DNA from: an uncultured Clostridia bacterium
GTDB taxonomy: Bacteria > Bacillota > Clostridia > UBA1381
Direction: 5' to 3'
DNA length: 64,000 nt
NCBI GenBank assembly: GCA_947631235.1
Contig: CANRKO010000001.1
Span: 1 to 64,000, forward strand
Shown piece by piece: positions 40,407 through 61,585 of this stretch (the stretch's first letter is position 1; each line of letters opens with the position of its first letter). Made by a program: the position numbers and the translations under genes. Below the pieces are notes generated by a model. That model worked only from the letters and a program-made list of their open reading frames with translations, searched no databases and was not told the origin of the DNA.

Positions 40407-43325
40407 ATGAATATTAAAAAGCTAATTGCCGTAATATCGGCTGCGGCGCTGACTATGAGTCTTGCCGTTCCGTGCGTGACGGCTGCGGACGCTCCGGAAG
40501 TCGGCAGCAGTCTGAAGGTCGGCGATTACGCCGAGAGCGCGGCGGAAACTCAAAAACTTATCGACGCGCGCCCCGACATACAAAGACCGATGGAAAAACT
40601 CGACAGAGGTCTTGTGGCGGTTAAAACGGGCGACAGCGTGTTTGTTTCGTGGCGGTGGCTCGGCACGGAAAGTGCGGACACGAAGTACAACCTGTACAGA
40701 AACGACACGCTCATTAACGGCGAGCCGATGAACGTTACGAATTACACCGACATCGTACCCGCAAGCGGCGCAAAGTACAGCGTCGCTCCCGTGGTTGACG
40801 GCAAGGAGGGCGAGAAGTGCGCGGCCGTATCGGTATGGAACGAGAGTTATATCGACGTGCCTATCGAGGCTCCTCCGGCGAACAGCGTTCAGGGCGAGGA
40901 TTACACGTACTCGGCAGGCGACGCGTCGGCTGCCGACCTTGACGGCGACGGTCAATATGAAATCGTGCTCAAATGGGATCCGTCAAACGCGAAGGACGCG
41001 GCTCAGTTCGGTTACACCGGCGAGTGCATTATAGACGCGTACGAAATGGACGGAACGCGTATGTGGCGCGTGAATATGGGACCGAATATCCGCGCCGGAC
41101 AGCATGACACGCAGTTCATGGTATACGACTTCGACATGGACGGAAAGGCGGAAATGGCTTGCCGCACGGCTGACGGCACGATTGCCGGCGACGGCACGGC
41201 TATCGGCGACGCGGATAAAAACTGGGCTGTTTTAAACGGCGGTAAAAATCTGCAGGGCCCTCTTTACCTTACCGTATTCAACGGCGAGGACGGCACTGTT
41301 ATAGACACCGTTGATTACGACCCGCAGATTACCGGCACTACAGCCGACGGTACTAAATGGGATATAAGCGCGTGGGGCGACACGGGCGGCAACCGTTCGG
41401 AGCGTTACCTCGCGGGCATAGGTTACCTCGACGGCACAAGACCGAGCATGGTATTCTGCCGAGGATATTACACAGGCTCGGAAGGCACGACCGGCGGCAG
41501 AACGGTTATGGCTGCGTTCGACCTCGTTGACGGAAAGCTAACCGAAAAGTGGCGTTTCGACACGATGGATTACAACAACAAATATATCGGTCAGGGTAAC
41601 CACTCGATGTCGCTCGCGGACGTTGACTACGACGGCTGCGACGAGATTATTTACGGCTCGCTCGCCGTTGACCACGACGGCAAGCCGATGTATTCGACAG
41701 GTCTCGGACACGGCGACGCTCAGCATGTGGGCGACCTCGACCCGTCAAGACCGGGTCTTGAAGTGTATTCCTGCCATGAGGACAAGGGTTCGGCTTACGG
41801 CTACGAAATGCGCGACGCGCGCACCGGTGAAATCCTTTACGGCGCGTACACCGGCACGGATAACGGACGCGGCGCGGCTGACGATGTTGACCCGACGCAT
41901 CCCGGCGCTGAAGGCTGGTCGGCTGCGGGCGTGCTCACAACGTCGAAGGGCGATGTCATCTCGACAAAGTACACGATGGCTGCGAACTTCTTCGCGTGGT
42001 GGGACGGCGATCTCGGACGCGAGGTGCAGGACGGTATTTATATAAGCAAATGGAATCCCGAAACGGAGAAAACCGACACGATATTCACCGCGGGCGGCAC
42101 GTTCGCCGTAAACGGCACAAAGGCTAACCCGTCGCTCACAGCCGACTTGTTCGGCGACTGGCGCGAGGAGACGATTTATCCCTTAAAGGACAGCAGTGCG
42201 CTCAGAGTTTACACGACGACTATCCCGACAGGCTACAAGCTGCCGACGCTGATGCACGACATTCAGTACAGGAACCATGTCGCGCTGCAGAATACGTGCT
42301 ACAATCAGCCGACGCACACGAGCTATTACCTCGGCTACGAGACGGAGACGATTCCCGTTCCGCAGATAACGGTTGACGGCGAGAAGAACCCCGACCTCGC
42401 GAAGAAGTCGTGGAATATCGCAGACCTCTATTCGGGCGAGAACGTGACGCTCGTCGTTGATACGCCGACCGCGCTCGTAAAGGGTCAGCCGATTAGAATT
42501 GACAACGACAACACCGACGTTGTGCCGATACTTGACGAAAACAACCGCACGCTCGTGCCGCTCCGCTTTATTTCGGAAGCGTTCGGCGACGAGGTTGAAT
42601 GGAAACAGGAAACGCAGGAAATCAACGTAAACGGCGGCGAAATCGTTATGAAGATAGGCAGCGCCGATTACACGGTATCGGGCAGCACGAAAACAATGGA
42701 TACCGCCCCCGTTATACGCGACGACAGAACGCTCGTGCCTTTAAGAGCGCTTGTTGAATCTCTCGGCAAGAAGGTTTACTGGAACGACGGTCTGATTGTG
42801 ATTTCCGATATAGACGTTACCATGGGCGACGCGGCTGCAAAGGCGCAGAAGGAGAATATCCAAAATGCGCCCGTACCCGAAAAGGTTGAAAAAATCGCTA
42901 TCAACGGCGTGGGCAAGAAATACTACGACAATCAGCTCGACGTGTACGGCGTAACGGCAAGCGACAACGACGGCAATCTCGAAGCCGGAGCGGTCGATCT
43001 CGATATGTCTACGCGCTGGTCGGCATGGGGCAAGAATACGCTCGTGATTGATCTCGGCTCGGTACAGAAGGTATCGGGCGTGTCGATAGCTATGTGGAAG
43101 GGCAGCGAGAGAATTTACCCGTTCACTATAGAGGTTTCGACCGACGGACAAACATGGACGGAGGCTCTTGCAAAGACGCAGAACACCGGCACTACCGAGG
43201 AATTTGAGAAGTATATGTTCAAATCCACGGTAGAGGCGCAGTACGTGCGTTACTCGGGCGACGGCGCGACCGACCCCGATAAGAATTACTGCCATATAAG
43301 CGAAATAGCTGTTTTGGGCGAGTAA
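40407..43325 (+). CDS. Secreted rhamnogalacturonan lyase, PL11 family
   Basis: Cleaves the rhamnogalacturonan-I backbone by beta-elimination outside the cell. A signal peptide (about 1-26) precedes a PL11 catalytic domain (about 45-650), an eight-bladed propeller type with repeated calcium-binding acidic motifs such as DLDGDGQYE, DFDMDGKAE and DVDYDGCDE. A copper-amine-oxidase-N-like stalk follows (about 685-810, NRTLVPLRFISEAFG and RTLVPLRALVESLG). A C-terminal discoidin/CBM32-like domain (about 830-972, TRWSAWGKNTLVIDLGSVQKV) completes its 972 residues. GCAAAGGAGAG precedes the ATG. Two promoters and a long leader suggest regulated expression. It works in the same pathway as the GH78 enzyme. 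Confidence 0.9.
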   Translation: MNIKKLIAVISAAALTMSLAVPCVTAADAPEVGSSLKVGDYAESAAETQKLIDARPDIQRPMEKLDRGLVAVKTGDSVFVSWRWLGTESADTKYNLYRNDTLINGEPMNVTNYTDIVPASGAKYSVAPVVDGKEGEKCAAVSVWNESYIDVPIEAPPANSVQGEDYTYSAGDASAADLDGDGQYEIVLKWDPSNAKDAAQFGYTGECIIDAYEMDGTRMWRVNMGPNIRAGQHDTQFMVYDFDMDGKAEMACRTADGTIAGDGTAIGDADKNWAVLNGGKNLQGPLYLTVFNGEDGTVIDTVDYDPQITGTTADGTKWDISAWGDTGGNRSERYLAGIGYLDGTRPSMVFCRGYYTGSEGTTGGRTVMAAFDLVDGKLTEKWRFDTMDYNNKYIGQGNHSMSLADVDYDGCDEIIYGSLAVDHDGKPMYSTGLGHGDAQHVGDLDPSRPGLEVYSCHEDKGSAYGYEMRDARTGEILYGAYTGTDNGRGAADDVDPTHPGAEGWSAAGVLTTSKGDVISTKYTMAANFFAWWDGDLGREVQDGIYISKWNPETEKTDTIFTAGGTFAVNGTKANPSLTADLFGDWREETIYPLKDSSALRVYTTTIPTGYKLPTLMHDIQYRNHVALQNTCYNQPTHTSYYLGYETETIPVPQITVDGEKNPDLAKKSWNIADLYSGENVTLVVDTPTALVKGQPIRIDNDNTDVVPILDENNRTLVPLRFISEAFGDEVEWKQETQEINVNGGEIVMKIGSADYTVSGSTKTMDTAPVIRDDRTLVPLRALVESLGKKVYWNDGLIVISDIDVTMGDAAAKAQKENIQNAPVPEKVEKIAINGVGKKYYDNQLDVYGVTASDNDGNLEAGAVDLDMSTRWSAWGKNTLVIDLGSVQKVSGVSIAMWKGSERIYPFTIEVSTDGQTWTEALAKTQNTGTTEEFEKYMFKSTVEAQYVRYSGDGATDPDKNYCHISEIAVLGE

Positions 43326-43721: not shown

Positions 43722-43864
43722 TATACATCACTTCCATAATTTCTGTCTTGCATATACATGAATTTTATCATAAAATTATCAATATTGTCAATACTAATTC
43801 CTAATATAGTATATAAAAAATATTCATAAATCAAATTATACTGATATTAAGGGATGTGATTATA

Positions 43865-44206
43865 ATGGAAATATTTTATCCGATTGGGAACAGAATTCAG
43901 CAGGAAAGGCAGAAAATGGGTCTTACACAGGAGCAGCTTGCCGAGAAAGCAGGAATTTCTCAAAATTTTATATCACTTATTGAAAACGGACGGAATATGA
44001 GTCTCGCGGTGATAATAAAGCTTGCAGGTATATTCGGAGTGACGGTAGACTATCTGCTGAGCGATGTTATGGATGTGAATGAAAACAACATTATCGAGCA
44101 AGGTATGGCATATATGAGGAAACTTACGCCAAAGCAGCAAATGTTTATACTGAATATGATAAAACAGTTTTACGAAACAGTAAACGAAAAAGGAACGCAG
44201 CAATAA
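43865..44206 (+). CDS. XRE-family regulator
   Basis: A 113-residue protein with an N-terminal Cro/C1 helix-turn-helix (about 6-60: RQKMGLTQEQLAEKAGISQN, then FISLIENGRNMSLAVIIKLA) and a short helical C-terminus. AAGGGATGTG precedes the ATG at 43865; the upstream GTG would overlap that site. It is divergent from the other XRE gene, so the two may share operators. AT-rich like its neighbour, it may have been acquired. The target is unknown. Confidence 0.82.
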   Translation: MEIFYPIGNRIQQERQKMGLTQEQLAEKAGISQNFISLIENGRNMSLAVIIKLAGIFGVTVDYLLSDVMDVNENNIIEQGMAYMRKLTPKQQMFILNMIKQFYETVNEKGTQQ

Positions 44207-46161: not shown

Positions 46162-46238
46162 TGGTCGGGATGACAGGATTTGAACCTGCGGCCCCTACGT
46201 CCCGAACGTAGTGCTCTACCAAACTGAGCCACATCCCG
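46162..46238 (-). tRNA. tRNA-Pro (anticodon CGG)
   Basis: Acceptor arms cgggatg / catcccg, anticodon stem ctacg / cgtag with loop ttcggga, T-arm GGTTCAAATCC and encoded CCA. Confidence 0.95.
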
Positions 46239-46272
46239 ATACCTCTCCGTCACGCGGAGGGGAAATGTCATA

Positions 46273-46348
46273 TGGTCGGAGTGACAGGACTTGAACCTGC
46301 GGCCCCTTGACCCCCAGTCAAGTGCGCTACCACCTGCGCTACACCCCG
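46273..46348 (-). tRNA. tRNA-Pro (anticodon GGG)
   Basis: Acceptor arms cggggtg / cactccg (one G-U pair), anticodon stem cttga / tcaag with loop ctggggg, T-arm GGTTCAAGTCC and encoded CCA. It is transcribed with the CGG isoacceptor 34 bases downstream. Confidence 0.95.
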
Positions 46349-46521: not shown

Positions 46522-46550
46522 TTGAAAAGACAACAAAAATATGGTATAAT
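46522..46550 (+). promoter_or_regulatory. Promoter of the zinc-ribbon cluster
   Basis: TTGAAA (46522-46527), 17 bases and an extended -10 TGG-TATAAT (46545-46550), 42 bases before the first start codon. Confidence 0.8.
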
Positions 46551-46591
46551 AATTATAATACGGTTAGAATGGGCATGAAAGGGGCGGAGCA

Positions 46592-47158
46592 ATGCGCTGC
46601 GAAAAATGCGGGAACGAAATCGCCGAGGGAAACAGAACATGTGAATACTGCGGCGCGCCGGTCAGGATGAGAAACTCCGGACGCAAAAAGAGGAGAAATC
46701 TTACGCTTGTCGCGGCTGCGGCAACGCTTATTATGCTCGGCGTACTGTCGCTTATGTGCGCCGGAATATCGATAAAAGCCGAACTGATGGGAACGTCCGT
46801 CAGGCTTTCGCTGCCCGTAATATCCGCATCGTCGGTCGTGGGGCTTGTTGTACAGGGCGGATTTGTGAAATTATTGCCCGGACTGTACATCGCGCTTTGC
46901 GCCGCTGCGGTAATCGCGGCGTTTATATCCGTGTTTATGATTATAACGCGCAGGCGTTCGGGAGTTACAATAGGACTTATAGCGGCTCTTGTTTCCGCGG
47001 TTATGGGCATAGCCATGATTATTGCGGTGTTTGTCATAAACGGCAAATACGGCGGCGAGGCTCTTTCCCTTGCTCCGTCGCTGTGGATGTGGGTATCCGT
47101 ACCCGTGAATATATTGAGCGCACTGTTTCTGTTTATTGAAAATGATGATATTGTATAA
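46592..47158 (+). CDS. Zinc-ribbon four-TM membrane protein, paralogue 1
   Basis: A 188-residue protein of unrecognised family. A zinc ribbon opens it (Cys3, Cys6, Cys17, Cys20 in CxxC-x10-CxxC), then a basic linker (GRKKRR) and four hydrophobic segments (about 36-58, 94-118, 124-147 and 162-183). A longer loop lies between the first two, probably outside. The basic linker before the first helix puts the ribbon in the cytoplasm. The next two genes encode proteins of the same plan, so the set arose by duplication. It is the first gene of a plus-strand cluster of four. Confidence 0.78.
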   Translation: MRCEKCGNEIAEGNRTCEYCGAPVRMRNSGRKKRRNLTLVAAAATLIMLGVLSLMCAGISIKAELMGTSVRLSLPVISASSVVGLVVQGGFVKLLPGLYIALCAAAVIAAFISVFMIITRRRSGVTIGLIAALVSAVMGIAMIIAVFVINGKYGGEALSLAPSLWMWVSVPVNILSALFLFIENDDIV

Positions 47159-47193
47159 GTATTTGATTTCGGAGAAAGAAAGGATGACAGAAA

Positions 47194-47880
47194 ATGATTT
47201 GCCAAAATTGCGGAAACGTCATTCCTGACGGCGTGAAGTTCTGTAACCGCTGCGGCGCGGAGCAGGAAGTTGTTGAGACTCCTCCGCAGAACGCGGAAAC
47301 GCCGAATTCAACCGATACTTACCGCGCCGCGCCGTATACAGCGGCGGATGGCGGCGCAAACACGCGGCTTTTGCTCGCGATTACGGCGGTTATCGCGCTT
47401 TTGGGAATTATGTCGGTGGTTTGCTCATCGCTCGTTATAAAGGGCGGAGAGGCTGCCGCGTCAATACCGTTTATGTCGGTGACAGCACTTCTGGGCAATC
47501 TGTCGAGAGCCGCAGACAGCGCGTCCGGAATGGGGGGCATACTGGGTCTTGATTTGGGAGATTGGGGCGCAAGCCTTGCCGGACCGCTGGCGGGAATGAT
47601 CGTTTACACGGTTTTTGCGGTAATCTGCGTTATATTGTATACGTTTTCAGCCGTGTTGGTTTTAAAGAAAAATCCCGTGGGAATAGTTATGGGAATGGCT
47701 GCGGGCGCGCTGACGATTTTGCTCAGCGTTATTATGATAATTGTTATGCTCGTGGCGAACGCTAATCTCGACATTCCAAATATTTCGCTCTCGCCGTCGG
47801 TGTGGGTATTGCTGGCAATTCCGGTCGGCGCGCTGTATGTGCTGTTGTGCGCCGTAAAGAACAGAGAATTGCTTTCGTGA
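47194..47880 (+). CDS. Zinc-ribbon four-TM membrane protein, paralogue 2
   Basis: A 228-residue relative of the preceding protein. The zinc ribbon (Cys3, Cys6, Cys17, Cys20: MICQNCGN and FCNRCG) leads into a Pro/Glu-rich linker (about 25-50) and four hydrophobic segments (about 55-78, 128-152, 158-182 and 197-218). The outer loop (about 79-125) is longer than in paralogue 1. The end of the membrane part (SPSVWVLLAIPVGALYVLL) is very similar to LAPSLWMWVSVPVNIL in paralogue 1. The gap of 35 bases contains GAAAGAAAGGATG. Confidence 0.78.
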   Translation: MICQNCGNVIPDGVKFCNRCGAEQEVVETPPQNAETPNSTDTYRAAPYTAADGGANTRLLLAITAVIALLGIMSVVCSSLVIKGGEAAASIPFMSVTALLGNLSRAADSASGMGGILGLDLGDWGASLAGPLAGMIVYTVFAVICVILYTFSAVLVLKKNPVGIVMGMAAGALTILLSVIMIIVMLVANANLDIPNISLSPSVWVLLAIPVGALYVLLCAVKNRELLS

Positions 47881-47924
47881 TAACATCGGAATTTGACCTG
47901 TAGTTGTGAAGGGGTGATTATATA

Positions 47925-48578
47925 ATGTTTTGCAAAAAGTGCGGAAACGCGTTGGACGACGGCATGAATTTCTGCCCGCGCTGCGGTGAACCCGCAGTGA
48001 AACCGATCGTACAGGAAACGCCGCCGGCGGAAAATGACGCGCAGCGCGATGTGTACGAGCCCGCAAACCCGACGCAGCCGATGTATCCCGTGCGTAAGGA
48101 CGTAAATATAAAAGTTCCCGCGTTTATGCGCGGCGGAAATGCGACGACATGGCTTGCGGTTATGTTCCTGCTCACGGCATGTACGATGATAAGTATGATT
48201 TTGAGCGGCGTGGGGATTTCCGTGAAAGCGGTGCGGGGTTTCGGTCTATCGCTGCCCGCTACGACGATTAGCGGTATCGCGGACAACGTGACGGCGTTCG
48301 GCGTGTATACGGTTTTTCTTGTGATTTATATTATAGTCAACTTATGCGCCGTGTTTATGATTTTAAATAAGATGAAATACGGAACGATTGCGGGCATCGC
48401 GGCTAACGCGATAGCCGTTATATCCGGTATAGTCGCCGTCGCGGCGTCGTTTTCGCTGTCAAAGGAAATAAACGAGTTTGTATCAACATTCCCGACCGTA
48501 TGGACGTGGCTCGCGCTTGTGTTCGGTCTTGCGAACTGCGCGTTCCTCATATTCAAAGGCGGGGATTTAGCGACATAA
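47925..48578 (+). CDS. Zinc-ribbon four-TM membrane protein, paralogue 3
   Basis: A 217-residue protein of the same plan: zinc ribbon (Cys3, Cys6, Cys17, Cys20: MFCKKCGN and FCPRCG), a Pro-rich linker (about 24-60), then four hydrophobic segments (about 68-92, 118-143, 146-170 and 184-206) with a short outer loop. It also ends in the shared FPTVWTWLALVFGLANCAFL pattern. GAAGGGGTG precedes the ATG. The linker is longer and more acidic than in paralogue 1. Confidence 0.78.
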   Translation: MFCKKCGNALDDGMNFCPRCGEPAVKPIVQETPPAENDAQRDVYEPANPTQPMYPVRKDVNIKVPAFMRGGNATTWLAVMFLLTACTMISMILSGVGISVKAVRGFGLSLPATTISGIADNVTAFGVYTVFLVIYIIVNLCAVFMILNKMKYGTIAGIAANAIAVISGIVAVAASFSLSKEINEFVSTFPTVWTWLALVFGLANCAFLIFKGGDLAT

Positions 48579-48649
48579 AGCATATTTATGTAAGCAGAGG
48601 GGTAAAAGTTTAGCGGGTTATGGTTATTTAAGGAAAGAGGTAAGGCGGT

Positions 48650-50464
48650 ATGTTTTGTCCGAATTGCGGAAACAATGTTGGAAACGAGGATTTTTGTAAA
48701 AAGTGCGGCGCGTCGCTTGACAATCCGTCAACGAGACGCTTTTGCGCGGAATGCGGATCGCCGCTTGACTACGGCAGCGAGAGATGTTCACAATGCGGCG
48801 CGGAGGTGGAGAGCGTATACAAGCAGGAGAACGAAAACGTCAGAAGTCGTGGAATAGAACAGCAGTCAAAGCAGACGCAGCCGACCGCGCCCAAAAAGAA
48901 GGGCGGTAAGCGGCTGGCAGTCGGTATTGCTGCGGCGGTCGTCGTTGCCGCTGCGGCGGTTATTGTCGTATTGCGCATGGGCGGCGGTGAAGGCTCGGAC
49001 ACGCAGTTCGCCGAGGCGCCTCCCGAAAATGTGTACCATGACGGCGGCGCGATTAAAATTATGACAAAGGCGTTTAACCAAAAGCAGGCGTCGAGCGACA
49101 GTTCCGTGCTGAAGGAACTGGAGACGTATGTCGGTGAGGATTTGGAAATCGAGTGGACGCCCGATACGAAGTATGACAGTTCTGTAAACGGCATTATAGG
49201 CTCGGGCGACTATCCGCACGTGATGCTTGTGGGCAGTAAGGGCTCGGCGTTTGTACAGGCGGCGAGAAGTGATATGTTTTGGGATATATCGGAGGCGTTT
49301 GACAATCCCGAAAAATACCCCAATCTTGCGCAAGCCGACCCGAATGTAAACCATAATATTTCCGTTGACGGCAAGATTTACGGCATATACCGCGCTCGTG
49401 AACTCGGACGCGCCGGTATTACGATAAGGAAGGATTGGCTCGATCGTCTCGGTCTCGATATACCGGAAACGATAGACGAGTTTTCCGAGGTTTTGAAGGA
49501 GTTTACGGAGAATGACCCCGACGGTAACGGAGTTAATGACACTTACGGCATGGTGATAACGAACTACCTGTCCGGACCGCTTGACAATATAGCGGTATGG
49601 ATGGGCGCTCCCAACGGCTGGGGTGTGGACGATGAGACGGACGAACTGAAACCGTCGTTTATGTTTGAAGAATACAAGGACGCGCTGAAACTGATGCGTG
49701 ACTGGTATAAGGCGGGATATATAAATCAGGACATGAATACCATGACGGCTGATAAGTGGAACGAACCCTTCCTGAACCAGAAAGCGGGCGTTATCATTGA
49801 CGTTGCCGACAGGTCGAGAAGGCTTGCTCAGGACATTGCGCCCATCAACCCGAACGCGGTGGTTGACGTGTTCGGATATGTGACGAAGGACGCCGGCTCA
49901 GAACCGAGAACGCTCCCGACAAACGGCTATAACGGCTTTTACGTGTTCCCGAAGTCAACGATTAAGACGCATGATGATTTGGAGCATATATTGACGGTAA
50001 TGGATAAGCTCAACGACAAAACGGCGGTTGACCTTATGAATTTCGGTATTGAGGGCGTACAGTATACCGTTGATGCAAACAACTACGTGACAATTACGAG
50101 CAATAAGGAGCTGCTTGACGATATCAGCGACCTTAATCAGATATCCATGGGAATTATCACATTCCCGGACGGCTTAAAGACAAAGTATACCGTTCCCGTG
50201 GCGGAGAAGGTGGATAAGGTTTACGAGAAAAACAGGCAGTACGCGATAAGCAACCTTGCGGAACCGTATATCTCCGAAACGTACACCAAAAACGGCCCTG
50301 TGCTTGACGATATAGTCAACACGGCGAAAATGAACTTCATAATCGGTAAAATTTCCGAGGAGGAATACGACAAGGAAGTGGAACGCTGGAAACGTGAAGG
50401 CGGCGACAATTACATAAGGGAAGTAAACGAGGAATACAGCAAGGATATTTCGGTTAAGCAGTAA
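48650..50464 (+). CDS. Double zinc ribbon-TM-extracellular solute-binding fusion
   Basis: A 604-residue protein with an unusual layout. Two zinc ribbons come first (Cys3/6/16/19 and Cys32/35/46/49), then a Gln/Lys-rich linker, one transmembrane helix (about 88-109) and an outer domain (about 120-604). That domain resembles sugar-type solute-binding proteins of the LipO/LplA kind: AGITIRKDWLDRLGLDIPET near 255-274 and the calcium-loop-like DPDGNGVNDTYG at 289-300. No signal peptidase site or lipobox is present, and no ABC permease gene is nearby. It may transmit ligand binding outside to the ribbons inside. Confidence 0.85.
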   Translation: MFCPNCGNNVGNEDFCKKCGASLDNPSTRRFCAECGSPLDYGSERCSQCGAEVESVYKQENENVRSRGIEQQSKQTQPTAPKKKGGKRLAVGIAAAVVVAAAAVIVVLRMGGGEGSDTQFAEAPPENVYHDGGAIKIMTKAFNQKQASSDSSVLKELETYVGEDLEIEWTPDTKYDSSVNGIIGSGDYPHVMLVGSKGSAFVQAARSDMFWDISEAFDNPEKYPNLAQADPNVNHNISVDGKIYGIYRARELGRAGITIRKDWLDRLGLDIPETIDEFSEVLKEFTENDPDGNGVNDTYGMVITNYLSGPLDNIAVWMGAPNGWGVDDETDELKPSFMFEEYKDALKLMRDWYKAGYINQDMNTMTADKWNEPFLNQKAGVIIDVADRSRRLAQDIAPINPNAVVDVFGYVTKDAGSEPRTLPTNGYNGFYVFPKSTIKTHDDLEHILTVMDKLNDKTAVDLMNFGIEGVQYTVDANNYVTITSNKELLDDISDLNQISMGIITFPDGLKTKYTVPVAEKVDKVYEKNRQYAISNLAEPYISETYTKNGPVLDDIVNTAKMNFIIGKISEEEYDKEVERWKREGGDNYIREVNEEYSKDISVKQ

Positions 50465-50557
50465 AGACAAACAAAATAACGTAAAATAAAAGCGCACGAA
50501 TTTGTTTCGTGCGCTTGACATTTTAAAATGAATGTGGTAAAATACCATAAGTGTCAC

Positions 50558-50646
50558 GGACAGGTATCGAAGTGGTCATAACGGCCCTGACTCGAAATCA
50601 GGTAGTCCTCACGGGCTCGTGGGTTCGAATCCCACCCTGTCCGCCA
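50558..50646 (+). tRNA. tRNA-Ser (anticodon CGA)
   Basis: Acceptor arms ggacagg / cctgtcc, anticodon stem cctga / tcagg with loop ctcgaaa, a long variable arm, T-arm GGTTCGAATCC and encoded CCA. Confidence 0.96.
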
Positions 50647-50739: not shown

Positions 50740-52263
50740 TTATAGCACAAAATCGTTAGTCGGATTTTCGGCTTTGATGTTATCTATACCAATATCATAT
50801 AGATTTAATACCCGTATATCCATTTTCGTATTTTCAATATAGTGCCGATACATTTTTTCAGCCGGAAGGAGACGCACATGAATATTCTGCAATTTAAGTC
50901 CTTTCATCATGTCAAGAGAAACAAACCCTTTTTCAACAATCTCCGATGCAGCTGTCGGCATAAGAAAGCAATTGCGCACCGTGCAAATTTTACAGTTATC
51001 AGTAAACTGCCGATAAGCAAGCTGATATAGATACTGTTTTGTAATAGACTCGATACCGGGCTGCCCGCGCAGTTTTTTGCCGTGTTCCAACCGGATAGTA
51101 TAGTATTTTGCATCAAAGATAATAAACTGAAATTCGCCGTCAACATTCACAATAGAAATAATGTCCGGAATCAGCGTGTCTTCTGCCTTGTGAGGTTCGG
51201 TATCATTTAGAGACAAATGCCACTGTGGTTTATCAATAAGTTCTATAAGACTCTTGTGTCGGATTTTAGGGCAAATTTTGGATAATGGAACAGGCAGACT
51301 CAGGCTGTCAATAGACCGCTGTAATTGATTATCCATTACTTCAGCGCAAACCTTCTCCCATACCAGATTGAAACTGTTTGTTCCGAACATACTGAAACAG
51401 TCCAAATCATCCAGGGCCTTGCTGTTGACTATATATGCGTACAGCGTTTTCAGAAGTAGCTGCTTGCGAGTATTGAACTGCACATTGAGTTCTTTGGTGA
51501 TGCGATATAGGATATATTCTTTATCACCAAAGTCTTCAATCTGCTCATCTGAAAGATCAGCGCCCGTAATATCAAATAAATCCAGCAGGTCAGCATCCCG
51601 CAGTTCTTCGGTACATCGGGTGAGAATACACTCATGCAAACGTTTAAAAAAATCAAAATCATTATTTACACGTTTCATAGTCAGCAATTCCGGATAATAC
51701 GGCCGATTGTCATAGAGAAGCGCGAATGTTTCATTGATGGTTTTATCCCACAGTATATCACCGGAACCGTTGGTTTCAACAATATCCTGTGTATTTGTAT
51801 ATATGCCGTACTCAAAATAGTCATGGAGCAGAAATAGCATAACAGCCAACATATTGAATGAACTACTGTCGTTTGTATCATTATACATACGAATAATCTG
51901 CTCTTTGGAATTGTATTTTTCCAGCACCTTCAGTATCTGCTTCAATTCTTTTTTTGGGGCGGTGGCATCAACCAAATATTTGGGATAACATTTTAGAACC
52001 CGACCTTCAATTGTAATAACACCGACAAAAGTGAACACATAAAAATACTCGTTTTCACCGACTCCAACATCGGCAATTTCAATATCCTCATCCAATAAGT
52101 CGGTAAGATCTTTCTGTGTATCCGTTGCTTTTACAGCTTTAAGCACACCATACTCCTTCAACCGCTTCAGGATGCGGACAGCCTTTTCCTCCGAACAGCA
52201 GAACAATCTAACTAAATCTCCCTGGGTATAGCGTTTTTGTTCCCGCAGAAATACCGAAATCAT
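50740..52263 (-). CDS. LlaJI-family restriction endonuclease subunit (R2-like)
   Basis: A 507-residue protein I recognise as the LlaJI-type nuclease partner of a McrB-like motor, by its sequence feel and by its context. The N-terminus looks like a winged helix (YTQGDLVRLFCCSEEKAVRILKRLKEYGVL). The nuclease core is in the C-terminal part, where PDIISIVNVDGEFQFIIFDAKYY (residues about 385-407) is a PD-(D/E)xK motif: PD, about 15 residues, then DAK. It overlaps the AAA+ gene by four bases, as expected for a co-translated complex. Confidence 0.82.
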   Translation of the reverse strand: MISVFLREQKRYTQGDLVRLFCCSEEKAVRILKRLKEYGVLKAVKATDTQKDLTDLLDEDIEIADVGVGENEYFYVFTFVGVITIEGRVLKCYPKYLVDATAPKKELKQILKVLEKYNSKEQIIRMYNDTNDSSSFNMLAVMLFLLHDYFEYGIYTNTQDIVETNGSGDILWDKTINETFALLYDNRPYYPELLTMKRVNNDFDFFKRLHECILTRCTEELRDADLLDLFDITGADLSDEQIEDFGDKEYILYRITKELNVQFNTRKQLLLKTLYAYIVNSKALDDLDCFSMFGTNSFNLVWEKVCAEVMDNQLQRSIDSLSLPVPLSKICPKIRHKSLIELIDKPQWHLSLNDTEPHKAEDTLIPDIISIVNVDGEFQFIIFDAKYYTIRLEHGKKLRGQPGIESITKQYLYQLAYRQFTDNCKICTVRNCFLMPTAASEIVEKGFVSLDMMKGLKLQNIHVRLLPAEKMYRHYIENTKMDIRVLNLYDIGIDNIKAENPTNDFVL

Positions 52264-54236
52264 TCTCCATCATCCTCTGATACATTATCTATGAATTGGC
52301 TGCTGATAGATTCGCAAAAAATGTGTACGCCCTTAGTTTTAAATTCTTCACAAATCTTTGAATATTGGTTTCTTGCCTTTTCATCGCATCCGCCAAATAG
52401 GCTGCTCCGTTTTTGTTTGGCTGCATCATCAAACAGGTACATAATTACCTTATTCATGAAAATATCAATGAATGCATCCGGGTCAATTACATCTCCGTCT
52501 GGCAGATTTTTCTTGGAGATGAAATATGGACCCATCAATTTATCCTCGTTAACTTTATAATTTAGAAGTTCACTATTGATAGCTTTGCGCAGTGCGTTCC
52601 ATTCCACGTTACGACGATATTTTCCTTGACCAAGGATAACCCTTTTCCCTTCAATTCCTTCTTCATTGTCATCAATTCCCAGATAGGTGAAGTTCCATCT
52701 GCGTTTGAAAGCGGTGTCCATCGGGAATACACCCTGGTCTGCGCTGTTCATAGTCGCCCAGATAAACATATTATCGGGGATGCGAATCTCAGCGTAGTTG
52801 TCGGGGCTGCCCCCAAGTTCCCCGGCAAGGTACTTTTTCATGTCTTCGGAAGCTTGGATCGGATACTCACTGGCTTCATCATCGCCGCGGTCAAGCAACT
52901 GGAATATATCGCCAAACACCGCTGCAACGTTTGCACGGTTGATTTCTTCCACGACAAGCAGAAATGGCTTTGGAGTATCAGTTCTGCTGTTCTGCAAAGC
53001 TTTGACGTAAGTACGCAAAAAAGGACCGGGTACATAGGAATATGTGATGGAATCATTACCATTGCTATCCCTGAATGGTATAGGCTTATATGTACCCACA
53101 AAATTAGCGTAGGAATAATCCGGATGGAAGGTTACGCGCTCGTATTTGCCACCGGTTTCAAGCAGGGCATCTTTCTCTAAATTCAAAGTAAAACTTTTAC
53201 CAGTACCCGGGGCGCCGAAAAAAATACGATTACGAGGATAACCACTTGCGAAACCTGTTACAAATTTGATATTCCCGACAGTTTCTGCTCGTTCTGACAA
53301 GAATTTATAATATAAATCCAAAAAAGCGTTTATACTGCCGTTGCCGTGTGAACGGTCAAATTCCTTATAATTTATGTCCTTTCTTATAACGTCAATAATC
53401 TTTTTATATACGTTTATATCGCTGATATTAAAAATGGATTCATATGGAGCGAGTTTTTCTGTATACTTACGGGAAACCTCTTTAGCAGCATTTAGATAAT
53501 TGATACGTGTTCTTTCAGAGTAATGTTCACCATTATCTTTTTTCACATACGTAAACCATTCCTTAAAAGCCTGCTCGTTGTCAACTGTATCGCCAACTTC
53601 TTCCGGGGAAGGAAGGTTGTGTGCATCCATTTCTTTAATCAGATTGTCATGCAGCCAGTGTGCATTGCGAATATAGAAATAAATAAATTCTTTTCTAAAC
53701 GCACATGCGTACTCTCCGTCACTCTTTTTCTGTTGTTCAAATCCTTCTTTCATTGCTTGCGCGATTGTTGCTATTTTGATTTGTTTAGAAATAGGCGTTT
53801 CAGCGTCAGCGGTTGAATGCTTTAACTTCCACGCACAAAAAATAGTTTGTCCATCGCGTTGATATACACCTAACTGTACGGCTAGGTGTCCGTTTTGTTG
53901 TTTGTCATACGCATAATTTATATACTTGCTCTTTTGCTGCGTGCGCTGCTCATCATTTAAATGGGAGCGACCGCCCGGCGTCGTACCTTTAGCACATATT
54001 GTAATCGAATCTTGCGAATCATTCCCAAAAGATATTGTATACACTTCCGACATTTGCTTACTTGCCGCTGAGCAAGCTGCATTGTGACCAAATTGACGGA
54101 AAGCGGATTGAAGTTCGGAGAGAACCTGATCTCTTGTTAGAGTATCGGTCTCACGGTTATAATCAGCAGTCACAATTTCGCCATTTCCAAGAGCCCATTG
54201 ATATTTTGGCATTTGATTTTCATCCTTATACATCAA
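52260..54236 (-). CDS. McrB-like AAA+ motor of a LlaJI-type system (R1-like)
   Basis: A 658-residue NTPase that would translocate DNA and drive the nuclease subunit. The AAA+ module lies in the C-terminal half: Walker A FFGAPGTGKSFTL, Walker B LLVVEEINRANVAAVFGDIF, and MNSADQGVFPMDTAFKRRW, the McrB/dynein-like sensor region. The N-terminal half (about 1-330) would hold DNA-recognition domains. In the known LlaJI system two restriction proteins and two methyltransferases act together, as found here. Its start overlaps a 62-residue small gene, and its end overlaps the nuclease gene. Confidence 0.85.
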   Translation of the reverse strand: MMYKDENQMPKYQWALGNGEIVTADYNRETDTLTRDQVLSELQSAFRQFGHNAACSAASKQMSEVYTISFGNDSQDSITICAKGTTPGGRSHLNDEQRTQQKSKYINYAYDKQQNGHLAVQLGVYQRDGQTIFCAWKLKHSTADAETPISKQIKIATIAQAMKEGFEQQKKSDGEYACAFRKEFIYFYIRNAHWLHDNLIKEMDAHNLPSPEEVGDTVDNEQAFKEWFTYVKKDNGEHYSERTRINYLNAAKEVSRKYTEKLAPYESIFNISDINVYKKIIDVIRKDINYKEFDRSHGNGSINAFLDLYYKFLSERAETVGNIKFVTGFASGYPRNRIFFGAPGTGKSFTLNLEKDALLETGGKYERVTFHPDYSYANFVGTYKPIPFRDSNGNDSITYSYVPGPFLRTYVKALQNSRTDTPKPFLLVVEEINRANVAAVFGDIFQLLDRGDDEASEYPIQASEDMKKYLAGELGGSPDNYAEIRIPDNMFIWATMNSADQGVFPMDTAFKRRWNFTYLGIDDNEEGIEGKRVILGQGKYRRNVEWNALRKAINSELLNYKVNEDKLMGPYFISKKNLPDGDVIDPDAFIDIFMNKVIMYLFDDAAKQKRSSLFGGCDEKARNQYSKICEEFKTKGVHIFCESISSQFIDNVSEDDGE

Positions 54237-54414
54237 GTACTTTAATATGCTTAGCGTTTAATGATTTTCTATTGAATATATCAGACATACCATATAACTG
54301 CCGTCCAAAGCTTGTAATATGGACACCTCCGTTATCTATAATAAGCTGCAGTAGGTGAGGCAGTTCTATTTGATTTGGAGAAAATTGCGTGCCAAATGGA
54401 AGTTCATATGTCAT
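54226..54414 (-). CDS. Small protein within the restriction-modification operon
   Basis: A 62-residue protein starting MTYELPFGTQFSPNQIELPH. Its ATG overlaps the stop codon of the methyltransferase (ATGA), and its end overlaps the start of the AAA+ gene, so translation appears coupled through the operon. The sequence LLQLIIDNGGVHITSFGRQL might be a small winged-helix piece like an Mrr N-terminal domain, but no firm match is made. It could be a loading or specificity factor. Confidence 0.6.
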   Translation of the reverse strand: MTYELPFGTQFSPNQIELPHLLQLIIDNGGVHITSFGRQLYGMSDIFNRKSLNAKHIKVLDV

Positions 54415-55478
54415 TCTACATCCTCCTTAAAATACTGATTTTTGATGGCATTTGCAATCTGCAAGACCAGAAGTGGAGGAACGGCATTGCCAATCTGCCG
54501 CCACTGATCTCTGAAATCGCCACAGAACTCATAATCGTCATCAAAGGTCTGAATACGTTTAATTTCACCAATGCGCAAGAACCGATTTTTCCAATGAAAT
54601 GGCCCCATATTGTTTGAGAAACTTGCTTGGATTGTCCAAGAGGGTTTTTGGGGGGACAATTTCAGCAAAAACGACCAATAACGAGAACGCCATTTAAAAA
54701 TAGGTTTCGGATATCCACGCTCTGCGGTAAAATACAAGTAATTATCGCCGGGGGGTACAAGTTTGAGAAGGTCTTTGTGTTTTGAACCTGCCTGCATATC
54801 CTTATCCTCCGGCAGATCGTAATCTAAATCTCCGATAGCTTCGCCGCAAGTTGTCCAAGGACGCTTTCCCAATGCAGATTCATCCGTTTTTTCAGGGTTA
54901 TAATGAGTTTCCTCCGGAAAAACAAATTTATCGCCAAACCCACGTTTTACCCCAATGCAAATAAATCGCTCCCTAATCTGAGGTACTCCGTAATTCGCCG
55001 CGTTAATAACTTTATAACTAATATCGTAACCAAGGGCATCGGCACGTTCTTTCAGCAAGTCAAAAGCTGCTCGATGTGGTTTGTACACGAAACCAAACAC
55101 ATTCTCGAAGAAGAATATCTTAGGTCGGATATCTTCTAACGCACGAAAATACTCATATAAAGTAAAGGAATTTTCATCTTCGAGAGCCCTTTTCTTATCT
55201 GTACGGTAAAAGCGAGACTTTGAATATGCAGGACAAGGCGGCCCACCGACTAAAACATCAATCTCTCCTAACGTCAGCCCGATTGATGCCAACTCCTTTT
55301 CATATTGAATTTCTCGAATATCTGCGCATTTTACGAGGCGGCCAACCTTATTTTTTTCAAGGGTATCGCAAGCGGGCGCCCAGAAGTCTGTAGAAAAACA
55401 TATATCATACCCTGCCTTTTTAAACCCGCAGTCAATTCCTCCGCCGCCGGAAAATATACTCACTACATTTATTCCCAT
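54411..55478 (-). CDS. DNA (cytosine-5-)-methyltransferase 2
   Basis: A C5-methyltransferase of 355 residues. Motif I is VVSIFSGGGGIDCGFKKAGY; motif IV has the catalytic cysteine in GGPPCPAYSKSRF (Cys82), with PCP in place of the usual PCQ. ENVFGF is motif VI, and the C-terminal QIGNAVPPLL is motif X. The target-recognition region lies between motifs VIII and IX. A second, different methyltransferase follows upstream, as needed to modify both strands of an asymmetric site such as that of LlaJI. The start codon overlaps the upstream stop by one base. Confidence 0.92.
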   Translation of the reverse strand: MGINVVSIFSGGGGIDCGFKKAGYDICFSTDFWAPACDTLEKNKVGRLVKCADIREIQYEKELASIGLTLGEIDVLVGGPPCPAYSKSRFYRTDKKRALEDENSFTLYEYFRALEDIRPKIFFFENVFGFVYKPHRAAFDLLKERADALGYDISYKVINAANYGVPQIRERFICIGVKRGFGDKFVFPEETHYNPEKTDESALGKRPWTTCGEAIGDLDYDLPEDKDMQAGSKHKDLLKLVPPGDNYLYFTAERGYPKPIFKWRSRYWSFLLKLSPQKPSWTIQASFSNNMGPFHWKNRFLRIGEIKRIQTFDDDYEFCGDFRDQWRQIGNAVPPLLVLQIANAIKNQYFKEDVE

Positions 55479-56539
55479 TATTCTAAACTCTCTTTCAAAT
55501 ATTGAATCATTGCTTTGCCCATTAACGCCGGCACTGCATTACCGATCTGTTTTTGCACCGAACGTCTGCTGCCGTAAAACTTATATTCTTTAGGGAAGGT
55601 TTGAATAGCTGCAATTTCCGGAACACGAAGCCGTCGATTATCCCAATGGAATGGCCCCACCCAAGGCCCGGGCTGTGCAGTAATAGTCCAAGAAGGCATA
55701 TCCGGTGATAACTTTAACAGAAAACTCCAGAATCGCTTATCGGCAACAAATTTAGGGTTTTTATAGCCATACCACGCAGTAAGCGCCTTATAATTCATGC
55801 CCGGCGGAACTTGGCATAGGTCGTCATGATATGTTCCTCCTATGGTCTCTTCTTCCGGCTCGTAATATTCGGGACCGTCATACCCCTTAATCACTTCGCC
55901 GACATTCACATATGGCAATAAACCGGTACGAGCGCTGTCCTCAGGAGCACAATGTGTTTTGATCGGCTCTTCCGTTTTAAAATCTCCCAATGTACCTATA
56001 ATGAACAGTCGTTTCCTTTTTTGGGACACACCATAATCTAAGGCGTTAGCACGAACAATTTTGTATTTATAGCCTTGCTTCGTAATGATTTCAATGAAGC
56101 TATCAACAATAACTCGGTTTGTCGGATGCAAAAGGCTTTCTACATTTTCAAATACAAATCCGTCGGGGTGAAGGTCGCAAACGACGCGCAGATATTCATC
56201 AACCAACGTTGCACGCGGATCGTTTATTCCTTTTCGAGTATTATTGCCTACCCAATATCCTGCTTTGGAAAAAGGCTGGCAAGGCGCTCCGCCAATCACG
56301 ATAAACTTATCATAGTCTTTTTGATGCAGAATATATGCAAATACACTACTGTCGATCCGGCGCAAGTCTCCTTCGATTATTTCAGAATTACGAAACAGTT
56401 TATTCATTTTAAGAGTCTTAATACAGTCAGAATCTAAATCTGTACTTGAAACGACAGGAATTCCGGCCAAAAAACTAGCCACATCTAATCCGCCAGCTCC
56501 CGAAAACAGACTAATGGCAACAATATTGCTTTTCTTCAT
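55478..56539 (-). CDS. DNA (cytosine-5-)-methyltransferase 1
   Basis: A C5-methyltransferase of 353 residues with motif I ISLFSGAGGLDVAS, the catalytic Cys87 in GGAPCQPFSKAGYW, ENVESLL (motif VI) and QIGNAVPALMG (motif X). The ATG at 56539 is chosen because AGGTG lies 7 bases before it. A start 27 bases further upstream would overlap the small XRE gene. It is the first enzyme gene of the restriction-modification operon. Confidence 0.92.
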   Translation of the reverse strand: MKKSNIVAISLFSGAGGLDVASFLAGIPVVSSTDLDSDCIKTLKMNKLFRNSEIIEGDLRRIDSSVFAYILHQKDYDKFIVIGGAPCQPFSKAGYWVGNNTRKGINDPRATLVDEYLRVVCDLHPDGFVFENVESLLHPTNRVIVDSFIEIITKQGYKYKIVRANALDYGVSQKRKRLFIIGTLGDFKTEEPIKTHCAPEDSARTGLLPYVNVGEVIKGYDGPEYYEPEEETIGGTYHDDLCQVPPGMNYKALTAWYGYKNPKFVADKRFWSFLLKLSPDMPSWTITAQPGPWVGPFHWDNRRLRVPEIAAIQTFPKEYKFYGSRRSVQKQIGNAVPALMGKAMIQYLKESLE

Positions 56540-56543
56540 AGCA

Positions 56544-56756
56544 TTACACCTTTTTTTCTTTTTCAATTTCAGCTACATCGCTCAACTCGCAATTGAGAGC
56601 ATGGCAGATACGTACAAGCACTTCGAGGGAAACATATTCATTTTTACTCATCTTAGAAAGCGTACTTGAAGCGATATCTGTTTTCATTCTTAAATCGGTC
56701 TTTGTCATATCTTTATCGATAAGAAGTTTCCAAAGTCGCTTATAATTGATTCCCAT
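56544..56756 (-). CDS. Small XRE regulator of the restriction-modification operon
   Basis: A 70-residue Cro/YozG-type helix-turn-helix protein (MGINYKRLWKLLIDKDMTKT at the start; TDIASSTLSKMSKNEYVSLE in the recognition region). The ATG at 56756 follows GAGGTG. It ends 4 bases before the first methyltransferase and shares its transcript, so it probably works as a control (C) protein that delays or balances restriction. It may instead belong to the family of regulators that many C5-methyltransferase genes carry. Confidence 0.82.
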   Translation of the reverse strand: MGINYKRLWKLLIDKDMTKTDLRMKTDIASSTLSKMSKNEYVSLEVLVRICHALNCELSDVAEIEKEKKV

Positions 56757-56811
56757 AGTACACCTCAGCTTTCTTAATAATAACATAGACACAGTTACTA
56801 CATCATTTTCC

Positions 56812-56840
56812 ATTATACTACAAAATATTCGAGAAGTCAA
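56812..56840 (-). promoter_or_regulatory. Promoter of the restriction-modification operon
   Basis: On the minus strand TTGACT (56835-56840), 17 bases and TATAAT (56812-56817). Confidence 0.8.
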
Positions 56841-56907
56841 TATATGGGTAGAGTTTGCAAATATTTTATTGCGACTATCGATAGTTATAATCCACCACAA
56901 AATATGG

Positions 56908-57636
56908 CTATCCGCGTTCCCTAGCTGCCATAACCGCCCCGATCACAGTGAAAATCGCTATATACACTATGCACACAACGGCAAACTGCACATATCCTCC
57001 GCTTTCGGCGATTTTCTGCGGTGCGTTCGAGTTCATGCCGTAGGACATCAGCGAGTAGGGCCATATGTGTCCCATGTTTTTCGCAAGAAATCCAAGCCCC
57101 GAAAGTCCGCCGGCGAACGATATTCCTATCGGCAGCGCGAAGCTTTTTATATTCATTGAGATCAAAATCTGTATTGCGACAATAACCATTCCTCCGAGCG
57201 TGCCGAACACGCACCATTGCGCGATAGTGAGCCACGGCGGATCAGTAAGCCCCGCCATGTATCCCGAAATCACGAACAGCGCGCATATCCATATCATGCT
57301 GAAAAGCAGCATCATCGCGGCGGTCAGGAGTTTTGCGAGAAATACCGACGAGCGGCTTGCGGGCATGGTGAAAACCTTGTTCCAGTTGTTGTTCGCGTTT
57401 TCCAGCCGCATTATATACGCGCAGTAAATACCGAGCATTATCGGCAGGAAAAAGTAATCGGTAAACAGCGTGTGCTGTGTCCACAGGCTCAGCCATTCGC
57501 GCGTTAAAACCTCCTTCTGATACAGATAATTCACCGTTCCCAAAGCCGCCGGAATAATCGGCATCAGTAAAAACGCGAGCCACACGGGTGAGCGCTTCAG
57601 CTTCATTCGCTCCGCCTTCAATAATTTCAGTAACAT
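56908..57636 (-). CDS. ABC-2 type permease, lantibiotic immunity type (MutG-like)
   Basis: A 242-residue integral membrane protein with six hydrophobic segments (about 18-36, 58-80, 102-126, 136-160, 168-188 and 214-236). The N-terminus LKAERMKLKRSPVWLAFLLM and the middle NWNKVFTMPASRSSVFLAKL are typical of MutG/EpiG/SpaG permeases that remove lantibiotics from the membrane. It is the last gene of a three-gene transporter unit, after a second permease and an ATPase. It lies next to the restriction operon but has GC-rich codons like the core genome. Confidence 0.85.
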   Translation of the reverse strand: MLLKLLKAERMKLKRSPVWLAFLLMPIIPAALGTVNYLYQKEVLTREWLSLWTQHTLFTDYFFLPIMLGIYCAYIMRLENANNNWNKVFTMPASRSSVFLAKLLTAAMMLLFSMIWICALFVISGYMAGLTDPPWLTIAQWCVFGTLGGMVIVAIQILISMNIKSFALPIGISFAGGLSGLGFLAKNMGHIWPYSLMSYGMNSNAPQKIAESGGYVQFAVVCIVYIAIFTVIGAVMAARERG

Positions 57637-57639
57637 AAT

Positions 57640-58401
57640 TTACAGCTCCTTTCTTTTGAATATTTCGCGCCCTATCATATACAGAGCGGCGCATATAAAA
57701 ATCAGCACGATAAAGAATGTCCAATCAATTCCCATAACGTCAAAATGCGCGTATCGGTAACGGTTTTCCTTTGACCAGTCAAACAGCCCGACAAACATCA
57801 GCACGGCGTAATAGCCCCAGATAAGCGATCTGCGGAGCCACGAAAGCTGCGGCAGAAACATTGAGAATGTCCCGAAAAACGTGCCTATCGCGCCCGAAAA
57901 GAACGTGACCGCCTGATTTTTAAAGCAGAGCGACAGCGTGTGCTGAAAAATGTACACCGCAACCGTCGGCGCGGCGGTGAACAGCAGATACAAAAGGTAC
58001 AGCTTTATCGGCACGTCGCCGCCGAAGCCCGTGATATAGCCGAACGCGATCGTCGCTACCCAGCTTAACGCCACACAGAACAGCATGATCGCAAGACCGT
58101 ATAACAGCTTAGCGTCGTAGATTTGCCCGCGCCTTTTTGTGACCGCAAGCTGCTTCAGCATTGCTCCCTTGTGCTCGATATCGCACAACCGCGACGATAC
58201 GATTATAGAGAGCAGCGGCATAAAGATAGAGTTTATAAGCGGCAGCTCGTATAAATTCGCCATCCAGCCGAGCCGCAGCAAATCTTCGCTATGATTCCTC
58301 GGATAAATCCATAACAGCATCGCCGCCGTTACGACGAGCGCGGTCACGAACACATAGCGGCGGCGCGTTTTCATAAACTCGCATTTTAGTAACTTTATCA
58401 T
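57640..58401 (-). CDS. ABC-2 type permease, lantibiotic immunity type (MutE-like)
   Basis: A 253-residue membrane protein with six hydrophobic segments (starting near 15-32 and ending near 222-243). KLLKCEFMKTRRRYVFVTAL at the start and HKGAMLKQLAVTKRRGQIYD, with AKLLYGL after it, are typical of the MutE/SpaE/EpiE type. It begins within the last bases of the ATPase gene (ATGA overlap) and ends 3 bases before MutG. The two permeases form a heterodimer with the ATPase dimer. Confidence 0.85.
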   Translation of the reverse strand: MIKLLKCEFMKTRRRYVFVTALVVTAAMLLWIYPRNHSEDLLRLGWMANLYELPLINSIFMPLLSIIVSSRLCDIEHKGAMLKQLAVTKRRGQIYDAKLLYGLAIMLFCVALSWVATIAFGYITGFGGDVPIKLYLLYLLFTAAPTVAVYIFQHTLSLCFKNQAVTFFSGAIGTFFGTFSMFLPQLSWLRRSLIWGYYAVLMFVGLFDWSKENRYRYAHFDVMGIDWTFFIVLIFICAALYMIGREIFKRKEL

Positions 58402-59129
58402 AAACTCCGCTCCTTTCCCGTGAGGTCGAGGAAGATTTCTTCAAGCGACTTCGATTTGTCGATATTATGCAGATTGTCAAGTGCGCCCTGATACATCATT
58501 TTGCCGTTCGCGATGATTCCGACGTCCTCCGCCATCTGGTCTATCTCCGAGAGCAAATGGCTTGACACGATTACCGTCATACCGTATTGACGCGGCAGCG
58601 ATTTGATAAGTTCGCGCATTTCCTGTATGCCCGACGGGTCAAGCCCGTTTGTCGGCTCGTCGAGTATCAAGAGTTTTGGGAACGATAAAAGCGCACCCGC
58701 AAGCCCGAGCCGCTGTTTCATGCCGAGTGAGTACGCCGACGCTTTCTTGCTGTGCTGGTTGTCGAGCCTGACGATTTGCAGCACCTTGTCGATATTCTTT
58801 TTCGGAACGTCAAGAAGCGTTTGCAGAATTTTTAGATTTTCCGCGCCCGTGAGATGTCCGTAAAACGACGGCGACTCGATAAGCGAGCCGATACCGCGCA
58901 GAATTTCAATGCGGTTTTTCGCGTCCATACGCCGCCCCATGATTTCAATTTCGCCCTCCGTCGGGCGGATAAGGCTTAGGAGCATTTTAAGCGTAGTCGT
59001 TTTTCCAGCGCCGTTCGGACCGAGAAAGCCGTATATGCGCCCCTCGTTCACGCGCATATTAAGACCGCTCACCGCAGCCGCGCCCTTGTAGAGTTTTGTG
59101 AGGTTTGTTGTTTTTACAATTTCGTTCAT
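58398..59129 (-). CDS. ABC ATPase, lantibiotic immunity type (MutF/BcrA-like)
   Basis: A 244-residue ATPase: Walker A GPNGAGKTTT near 39, Q-loop, signature YSLGMKQRLGLA, Walker B LLILDEPTNGLD and switch VSSHLLSEIDQM. The C-terminal extension matches BcrA/MutF families that protect against lantibiotics and bacitracin. The ATG at 59129 follows AAAGGGGATTT. A frame open 14 codons upstream crosses the promoter. Three AAGGTT boxes upstream, spaced by 11-bp turns, suggest control by the divergent response regulator. Confidence 0.9.
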   Translation of the reverse strand: MNEIVKTTNLTKLYKGAAAVSGLNMRVNEGRIYGFLGPNGAGKTTTLKMLLSLIRPTEGEIEIMGRRMDAKNRIEILRGIGSLIESPSFYGHLTGAENLKILQTLLDVPKKNIDKVLQIVRLDNQHSKKASAYSLGMKQRLGLAGALLSFPKLLILDEPTNGLDPSGIQEMRELIKSLPRQYGMTVIVSSHLLSEIDQMAEDVGIIANGKMMYQGALDNLHNIDKSKSLEEIFLDLTGKERSL

Positions 59130-59173
59130 AATAAATCCCCTTTCTGTTTTGGAATGATTTAATGTTAACATAT

Positions 59174-59213
59174 AAACCTTTCGGGAAAATAAACTAAACC
59201 TTACGTGAACCTT
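59174..59213 (-). promoter_or_regulatory. Three direct repeats for an OmpR-type regulator
   Basis: On the minus strand AAGGTT occurs at 59208-59213, 59197-59202 and 59175-59180, that is at 11 and 22 bp. Two copies are aaggttt. Phased direct repeats are typical binding sites for OmpR-family regulators, so this is a likely target of the response regulator at 59501. Confidence 0.65.
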
Positions 59214-59270
59214 AAATATTTATAAATTCTGTTTCAATATGGAATGAATTATGGTACAATATTTAATAAA

Positions 59271-59476
59271 AGAGCACGACGATTTAGCGTCGTAGGCGTG
59301 TGGCCCCCTTGTCAAAGTGAACAACACGTATAGCGTGTTGTAGGCGTGTTGCGAAGCAACAAACGCCGTAGCAAAGGGGGCTGTCACGCGTAGCGTGACT
59401 GGGGGATTCCTTTTCGGTTTCTAAACAGAATCCCTCCACCGGCTTCGCCGGTCCCCCTCCCTTTAACAAGGGAGGC
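59271..59476. repeat. Composite palindromic repeat element, second copy
   Basis: The 371-base gap between the divergent ATPase and response regulator genes holds, besides the promoters, this element. Hairpin modules: gacgatttagcgtc, aacacgtatagcgtgtt, tgttgcgaagcaaca, gtcacgcgtagcgtgac, accggcttcgccggt and cctccctttaacaagggagg. The stretch 59373-59474 is the reverse complement of 39091-39192 apart from small changes. Confidence 0.8.
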
Positions 59477-59500
59477 TAATAATATAATCGGAGAATAAAC

Positions 59501-61526: not shown

Positions 61527-61585
61527 CTGCAAAATGCAAAACAAATACACTCATCATGTTTCGACTTTCAATTTAATCCATTTGC

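Follow-up and report, generated by a model that had tools for sequence, protein, structure and literature searches.

The DNA analyzed here (hereafter the window) comprises 64,000 nucleotides of contig CANRKO010000001.1 from an uncultured Clostridia bacterium and carries four consecutive genes for zinc-ribbon membrane proteins at positions 46592 to 50464. The product of the fourth gene is a fusion in which two zinc ribbons and a single helix precede a large outer domain. Sequence and predicted fold identify this domain as an extracellular solute-binding protein (SBP) of the AlgQ/LplA type. A single origin of the fusion from an importer SBP is most likely, and the protein is tentatively regarded as a receptor, tethered to the membrane, that would bind rhamnogalacturonan oligosaccharides and signal, or dock a partner, through presumably cytoplasmic ribbons. 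Genomes are designated by G numbers, G000 being the window's own genome, and the loci or contigs compared by L numbers.

The ribbon region of gene 4 scores 37.5 bits with the Pfam model DZR (cut-off 27.3), and its cysteines (3/6/16/19 and 32/35/46/49) are all invariant in seven aligned orthologues. The helix is followed by 496 further residues. The charge pattern and the extracellular descent of the SBP suggest that the ribbons lie on the cytoplasmic side. Pfam SBP_bac_8 is matched at E<=0.05 by two of the seven fusions, the window copy being without a match, and in NCBIfam gene 4 is matched best by a model of a serine/threonine phosphatase, over residues 2-61 and with 29 bits against a cut-off of 374. 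No lipobox-like match is present in the first 130 residues of six relative fusions, nor by eye in the window copy; the pattern employed, which is crude (L087 is scored as lacking it and appears lipoprotein-like by eye), is matched in 42 of the 52 rows of the tree described below. No permease family was found among the scanned window neighbours of gene 4, and none by eye at the related loci. A first-pass annotation of the sequence had correctly described two ribbons, one helix and a large outer domain in gene 4, without recognizing the latter as an SBP. The system, which it put forward as a candidate for an undescribed one, is not wholly so, since this domain belongs to a well-known family of carbohydrate ATP-binding cassette (ABC) importer SBPs; a family of settled role is thus found for that part of gene 4, and genes 1 to 3 match ribbon models only.

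The same genome also holds a canonical relative of the binding domain. A lipoprotein SBP encoded at G000:C3, about 51% identical to gene 4, is preceded by two BPD_transp_1 permeases and a 715-aa Glyco_hydro_88 protein. This layout is recognizable by eye in G011, G015, G020 and G014, the G020 locus also adjoining rhamnogalacturonan lyase-like and hydrolase-like genes (by eye). In all six canonical loci that were read, two permease genes stand beside the SBP, and a GH88-like hydrolase gene is present in five, the stretch shown for G025 having permeases and no hydrolase. At the canonical locus of G004, one permease open reading frame (ORF) is short (197 vs 331 aa). The combination of two permeases and a GH88-like hydrolase is that of pectin (rhamnogalacturonan-I) importers. 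A reference case is the Bacillus subtilis locus containing yteR, the gene of a GH105 enzyme. The YtcQP-YteP importer of this locus serves the use of rhamnogalacturonan-I, and deletion of ytcQ lengthens the doubling time on this substrate from 189 to 496 minutes (PMC5730181). From its family and from the neighbours of its canonical relatives, the SBP of gene 4 may be expected to bind rhamnogalacturonan sugars as the B. subtilis importer does. Six PL11 rhamnogalacturonan lyase genes in G000, one of them at window positions 40407-43325, indicate a pectin specialist. In a 52-row tree, from which seven truncated SBP ORFs and duplicates were omitted, the seven ribbon-helix-SBP fusions group together in a single clade (100/99) that lies within the lipoprotein SBPs, and this points to the single origin proposed above. 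The canonical SBPs from six fusion-holding genomes form a separate clade (100/100), and the joining of the two clades is not resolved. Two further SBP relatives are of interest: L031:1372-2898 (G038) has an N-terminal hydrophobic stretch with neither a lipobox-like match nor a ribbon and is possibly a simpler membrane-tethered SBP, and L022:1042-2934 (G012) carries an N-terminus which by eye resembles a secreted, copper-amine-oxidase-N-like domain and may represent either another fusion or a gene-boundary artefact.

The features of the cluster and of its borders are collected in Table 1. The four genes are separated by gaps of 35, 44 and 71 bp. When the 135 window ORFs (six-frame, at least 100 aa) were searched for CxxC-x8-16-CxxC in their first 60 residues, the four cluster genes alone were retrieved; cysteine positions and the ORF scan thereby bear out the initial observation of four same-strand genes each opening with a ribbon. 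The promoter is kept in all eight aligned upstream regions, three of which are near-identical and one of which reads TACAAT at the -10 position. The approximately 50 bp located 5' of the promoter are also alike in seven of the eight regions, and the leader behind it differs. The extended -10 element noted in the first-pass annotation is therefore present, and its description as the single promoter is only likely, as other promoter-like matches (9/12) occur inside the cluster. An Rfam scan of 43-51 kb returned the three tRNAs and nothing else.

Table 1. Coordinates of the zinc-ribbon cluster, its control elements and its borders in the window.
Feature	Position	Strand	Basis or remark
Gene 1, zinc ribbon and four-helix membrane protein, type 1, 188 aa	46592..47158	+	Zn_Ribbon_1, hydropathy, full-length profile match
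Gene 2, zinc ribbon and four-helix membrane protein, type 2, 228 aa	47194..47880	+	Zn_Ribbon_1, hydropathy, full-length profile match
Gene 3, zinc ribbon and four-helix membrane protein, type 3, 217 aa	47925..48578	+	Zn_Ribbon_1, AlphaFold model
Gene 4, ribbons, helix and outer domain	48650..50464	+	
Gene 4 residues 1-53, two zinc ribbons, probably cytoplasmic	48650..48808	+	DZR
Gene 4 residues 90-108, single transmembrane helix behind K/R-rich linker	48917..48973	+	mean Kyte-Doolittle 2.96
Gene 4 residues 125-604, extracellular solute-binding domain, AlgQ/LplA kind, DPDGNGVND motif	49022..50461	+	
Sigma-A-type promoter, TTGAAA, 17 nt, TG-n-TATAAT	46522..46550	+	11/12 consensus match
11-pair hairpin, possible terminator	50490..50516	.	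3' of gene 4; called on minus strand only
tRNA-Pro(cgg) and tRNA-Pro(ggg), left syntenic border	46162..46348	-	
tRNA-Ser(cga), right syntenic border	50558..50646	+	

Genes 1 to 3 exceed the Zn_Ribbon_1 cut-off (25 bits) with 29.2, 31.8 and 29.7 bits, respectively, their ribbon cysteines occupying positions 3/6/17/20. Zn_Ribbon_1 or DZR is matched at E<=0.05 in all 17 aligned four-helix members and in all seven aligned fusions. The earlier description of genes 1 to 3 as short four-helix paralogues agrees with hydropathy, by which genes 2 and 3 have four segments each and gene 1 has four and a marginal fifth (1.75), and with the AlphaFold model of gene 3, which displays four long helices (73-93, 115-147, 152-181 and 192-216). 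Past the family cut-offs of Pfam and NCBIfam, only ribbon models are matched: gene 1 misses the DUF6320 cut-off (15.4 vs 29.9 bits), a model weakly matched by two of the 17 members, and a search of solved structures with the profile of genes 1 to 3 gave a best E of 0.12, ribosomal proteins accounting for nine of the 13 rows. A permease function for these genes was considered and rejected as no Pfam transporter family was matched.

The genes are also found together outside the window. The fusion was detected in seven of 61 relatives' genomes, seven of 70 genomes of the family and seven of 95 of the order, and, among the matches listed, the family genomes with full-length four-helix proteins are the same seven of 70. 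Ordered by E, the four-helix matches fall from 1e-60 to 4e-14, and the later ones end at or before position 112 of the 209 in the profile, with the exception of the second piece of gene 3 of G033. Sets of four genes are present in G000, G005, G033, G008, G011 and G010, the latter also having an additional, incomplete set where a contig ends. Both tRNA borders are found in G000, G008, G011 and G004, the tRNA-Ser being inverted in G004. G033 is labelled as another genus; the gene adjoining its fusion is 94-95% identical to those of G000 and G005 and finds no match in G018, the second genome searched from the labelled genus, so that its fusion contig (L078, G033:C59) is probably mis-binned and belongs to the window's genus. 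The named records are metagenome-assembled genomes, one of them from the duodenum of a goat and the others bearing the name Lapin, which probably refers to rabbit. Across the 95 genomes of the order (E<=1e-9), no fusion was found beyond the known seven, the other ORFs measuring 157-416 aa. At class level, 391 evenly drawn genomes (E<=1e-11, at most ten candidates scored per genome) returned, besides G000 itself, two ORFs (324 and 335 aa), and the four-helix profile (E<=1e-13, at most seven candidates scored) gave no further full-length match; fusion and four-helix searches of this type could miss a ribbon joined to an unrelated SBP. The four-helix profile matches 61 of the 70 family genomes, and the rows listed outside the seven holders do so by the ribbon end. 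No cluster was seen at the GDH locus of five genus members devoid of the fusion (G015, G006, G002, G013 and G009). In G013, GDH and a tRNA-Ser(cga) are separated by about 2.8 kb that contain no cluster, and this may be an empty site, compatible with gain as well as loss. In G010, the fusion is followed by a fifth zinc-ribbon gene (L059:4267-5175, 302 aa, two ribbons) with a weak C-type-lectin match below the cut-off (E 0.0012).

The receptor proposal starts from gene content, domain identity, a single fusion clade, co-occurrence, a conserved shared promoter and a retained constraint on the binding domain, all directly observed. An importer-type SBP would have been rebuilt as a membrane-spanning protein devoid of a lipoprotein signal, with one helix joining the outer domain to two ribbons. 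The products of genes 1 to 4 would form one membrane complex, the outer domain would close around an oligosaccharide, and the complex would pass on its state, or dock a cytoplasmic partner, via the clustered ribbons facing inward. The sensing or recruiting complex suggested initially stays the best reading, as an inference, with an importer role as its main rival. In this second explanation, which is possible and less probable, gene 4 delivers oligosaccharides to a permease pair encoded elsewhere, its helix replacing the lipid anchor, and the ribbons and four-helix proteins position it beside the importer. The own genome does retain a permease pair, and ribbon-less tethered SBPs such as that of L031 may exist. 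The binding domain of gene 4 keeps 73 of 84 canonical conserved columns, at least the level of two held-out canonical clades (82/96 and 81/101), as would be expected if permease contacts were kept; this comparison employed 33 canonical rows, leaving out eight Paenibacillus rows, L031, L032, L033 and L087. The fusion-holding genomes, however, also possess a lipoprotein SBP of the same kind under strong constraint (dN/dS, the ratio of nonsynonymous to synonymous divergence, of 0.05 between G000 and G008), and neither ribbons nor ribbon-bearing partners are necessary for feeding. The receptor is favoured because a constrained SBP is retained for the importer, because what has been added consists of ribbons and of membrane partners that carry ribbons, and because the plan of ribbon, helix and ligand domain has earlier been read as signalling (PMC3924330, section 6).

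A third explanation, unlikely in our estimation, is that the outer domain no longer senses sugar and that the complex was co-opted for envelope maintenance or for dealings with microbes or phages, hence its fast divergence. Between G000 and G008, genes 1 to 4 are 66, 67, 61 and 82% identical, compared with 87-100% for 13 comparison genes, which were drawn at two loci and do not form a random sample (the antisense shadow ORF 46564-47205 was not counted). The corresponding dN values are 0.11-0.26 for the cluster and at most 0.08 for the comparison genes, and dS values are 0.50-1.55 and 0.11-0.66, gene 2 (0.50) lying within the comparison range. A weak NCBIfam match over ribbon and helix is to TcaA, a membrane protein that carries a zinc ribbon and has a role at the surface. 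However, residues 126-604 of gene 4 show a dN/dS near 0.1 with most canonical conserved columns kept, and the fast parts are the four-helix proteins and, within gene 4, the linker and helix (60% identity to G008, against 84% for the binding domain and 87% for the ribbons, the slowest part; against G010, ribbons and binding domain are 70% and 80% identical). Raised dS also fits allele replacement by recombination, and the pattern as a whole is compatible either with old alleles having been exchanged or with membrane parts that evolve rapidly. A chance neighbourhood of four unrelated genes is highly improbable: zinc-ribbon proteins are numerous in the family, but gene order, similar gaps and the promoter are kept across species, with co-occurrence in seven of seven genomes.

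Several observations weigh against the receptor. G004 harbors the fusion with a single four-helix gene between both tRNA borders, so that this reduced set is real rather than a contig effect and three such genes are not obligatory. The co-occurrence stems from one lineage (six species of one genus and one probably mis-binned contig) and is therefore weaker than seven independent cases. No conserved regulator or kinase was found beside the cluster, and the nearness of a PL11 gene carries little weight as G000 has six. The five AlphaFold models of gene 4 disagree (mean predicted local distance difference test (pLDDT) of 72.9 to 39.8), and the best one places ribbons and helix below 60. The canonical constraint kept in the binding domain fits delivery to an importer equally well.

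Gene 4 shares binding-domain sequence, predicted fold, a DPDGNG-type motif and origin with the YtcQ/LplA/AlgQ-type lipoproteins, and differs from them by the lack of a lipobox-like match, by two N-terminal ribbons and a helix, and by its location away from permeases. The RsgI anti-sigma factors of Clostridium thermocellum are reportedly membrane proteins that report outside plant polysaccharide inward by acting on a sigma factor; they would work alike and are not known to carry a ribbon. Unlike in RsgI systems, no sigma factor was found among the scanned window neighbours of the cluster. Proteins combining a zinc ribbon, a helix and an extracellular NTF2-like DUF (PMC3924330) likewise link an intracellular ribbon to an outer domain proposed to bind a ligand; that domain is NTF2-like instead of an SBP, and section 6 of that paper mentions no four-helix partners. 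The Sphingomonas A1 protein SPH1118, a pectin SBP that takes part in both chemotaxis and assimilation, is likewise used in signalling besides uptake, and its published abstract mentions no fused ribbons or helix. The plan of ribbon, helix and outer ligand domain is hence published; an SBP as the outer domain and the four-helix partners are new, and no prior description of a zinc ribbon combined with a solute-binding protein was found in the open-access literature searched. The receptor reading would give a zinc-ribbon membrane protein a concrete ligand class, none of the matched families having named a signal, and the importer SBP of about 51% identity in the same genome allows the change from uptake protein to receptor to be studied. 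In a more specific version, which we regard as rather improbable, claudin-like four-helix subunits set the state of a transmembrane sugar receptor that signals by gathering ribbons inside the cell; if true, this would be a bacterial signalling class operating with no kinase, sigma factor or transporter.

The initial statement that no known regulator or transporter lies nearby needs qualification. A helix-turn-helix (HTH) gene at 43856-44206 is near the cluster; it goes with the GDH gene, as it is unlisted among the ORFs of the G008, G011 and G010 loci and resembles an ORF beside GDH in G006, which has no cluster. A response regulator, a kinase and an ABC-2 exporter are encoded at 56.9-61.5 kb, in a stretch absent from a sister contig. 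This stretch of about 11 kb (50740-61530), located between the tRNA-Ser and a glutamate-cysteine ligase gene (61586-62803), also encodes an LlaJI-type endonuclease, an MTaX1/AAA protein, two C5 methylases and an HTH protein. On contig L078, a 94% identical ligase directly follows the tRNA-Ser, and 50740-61530 therefore appears to be an island that was inserted and that carries a restriction system.

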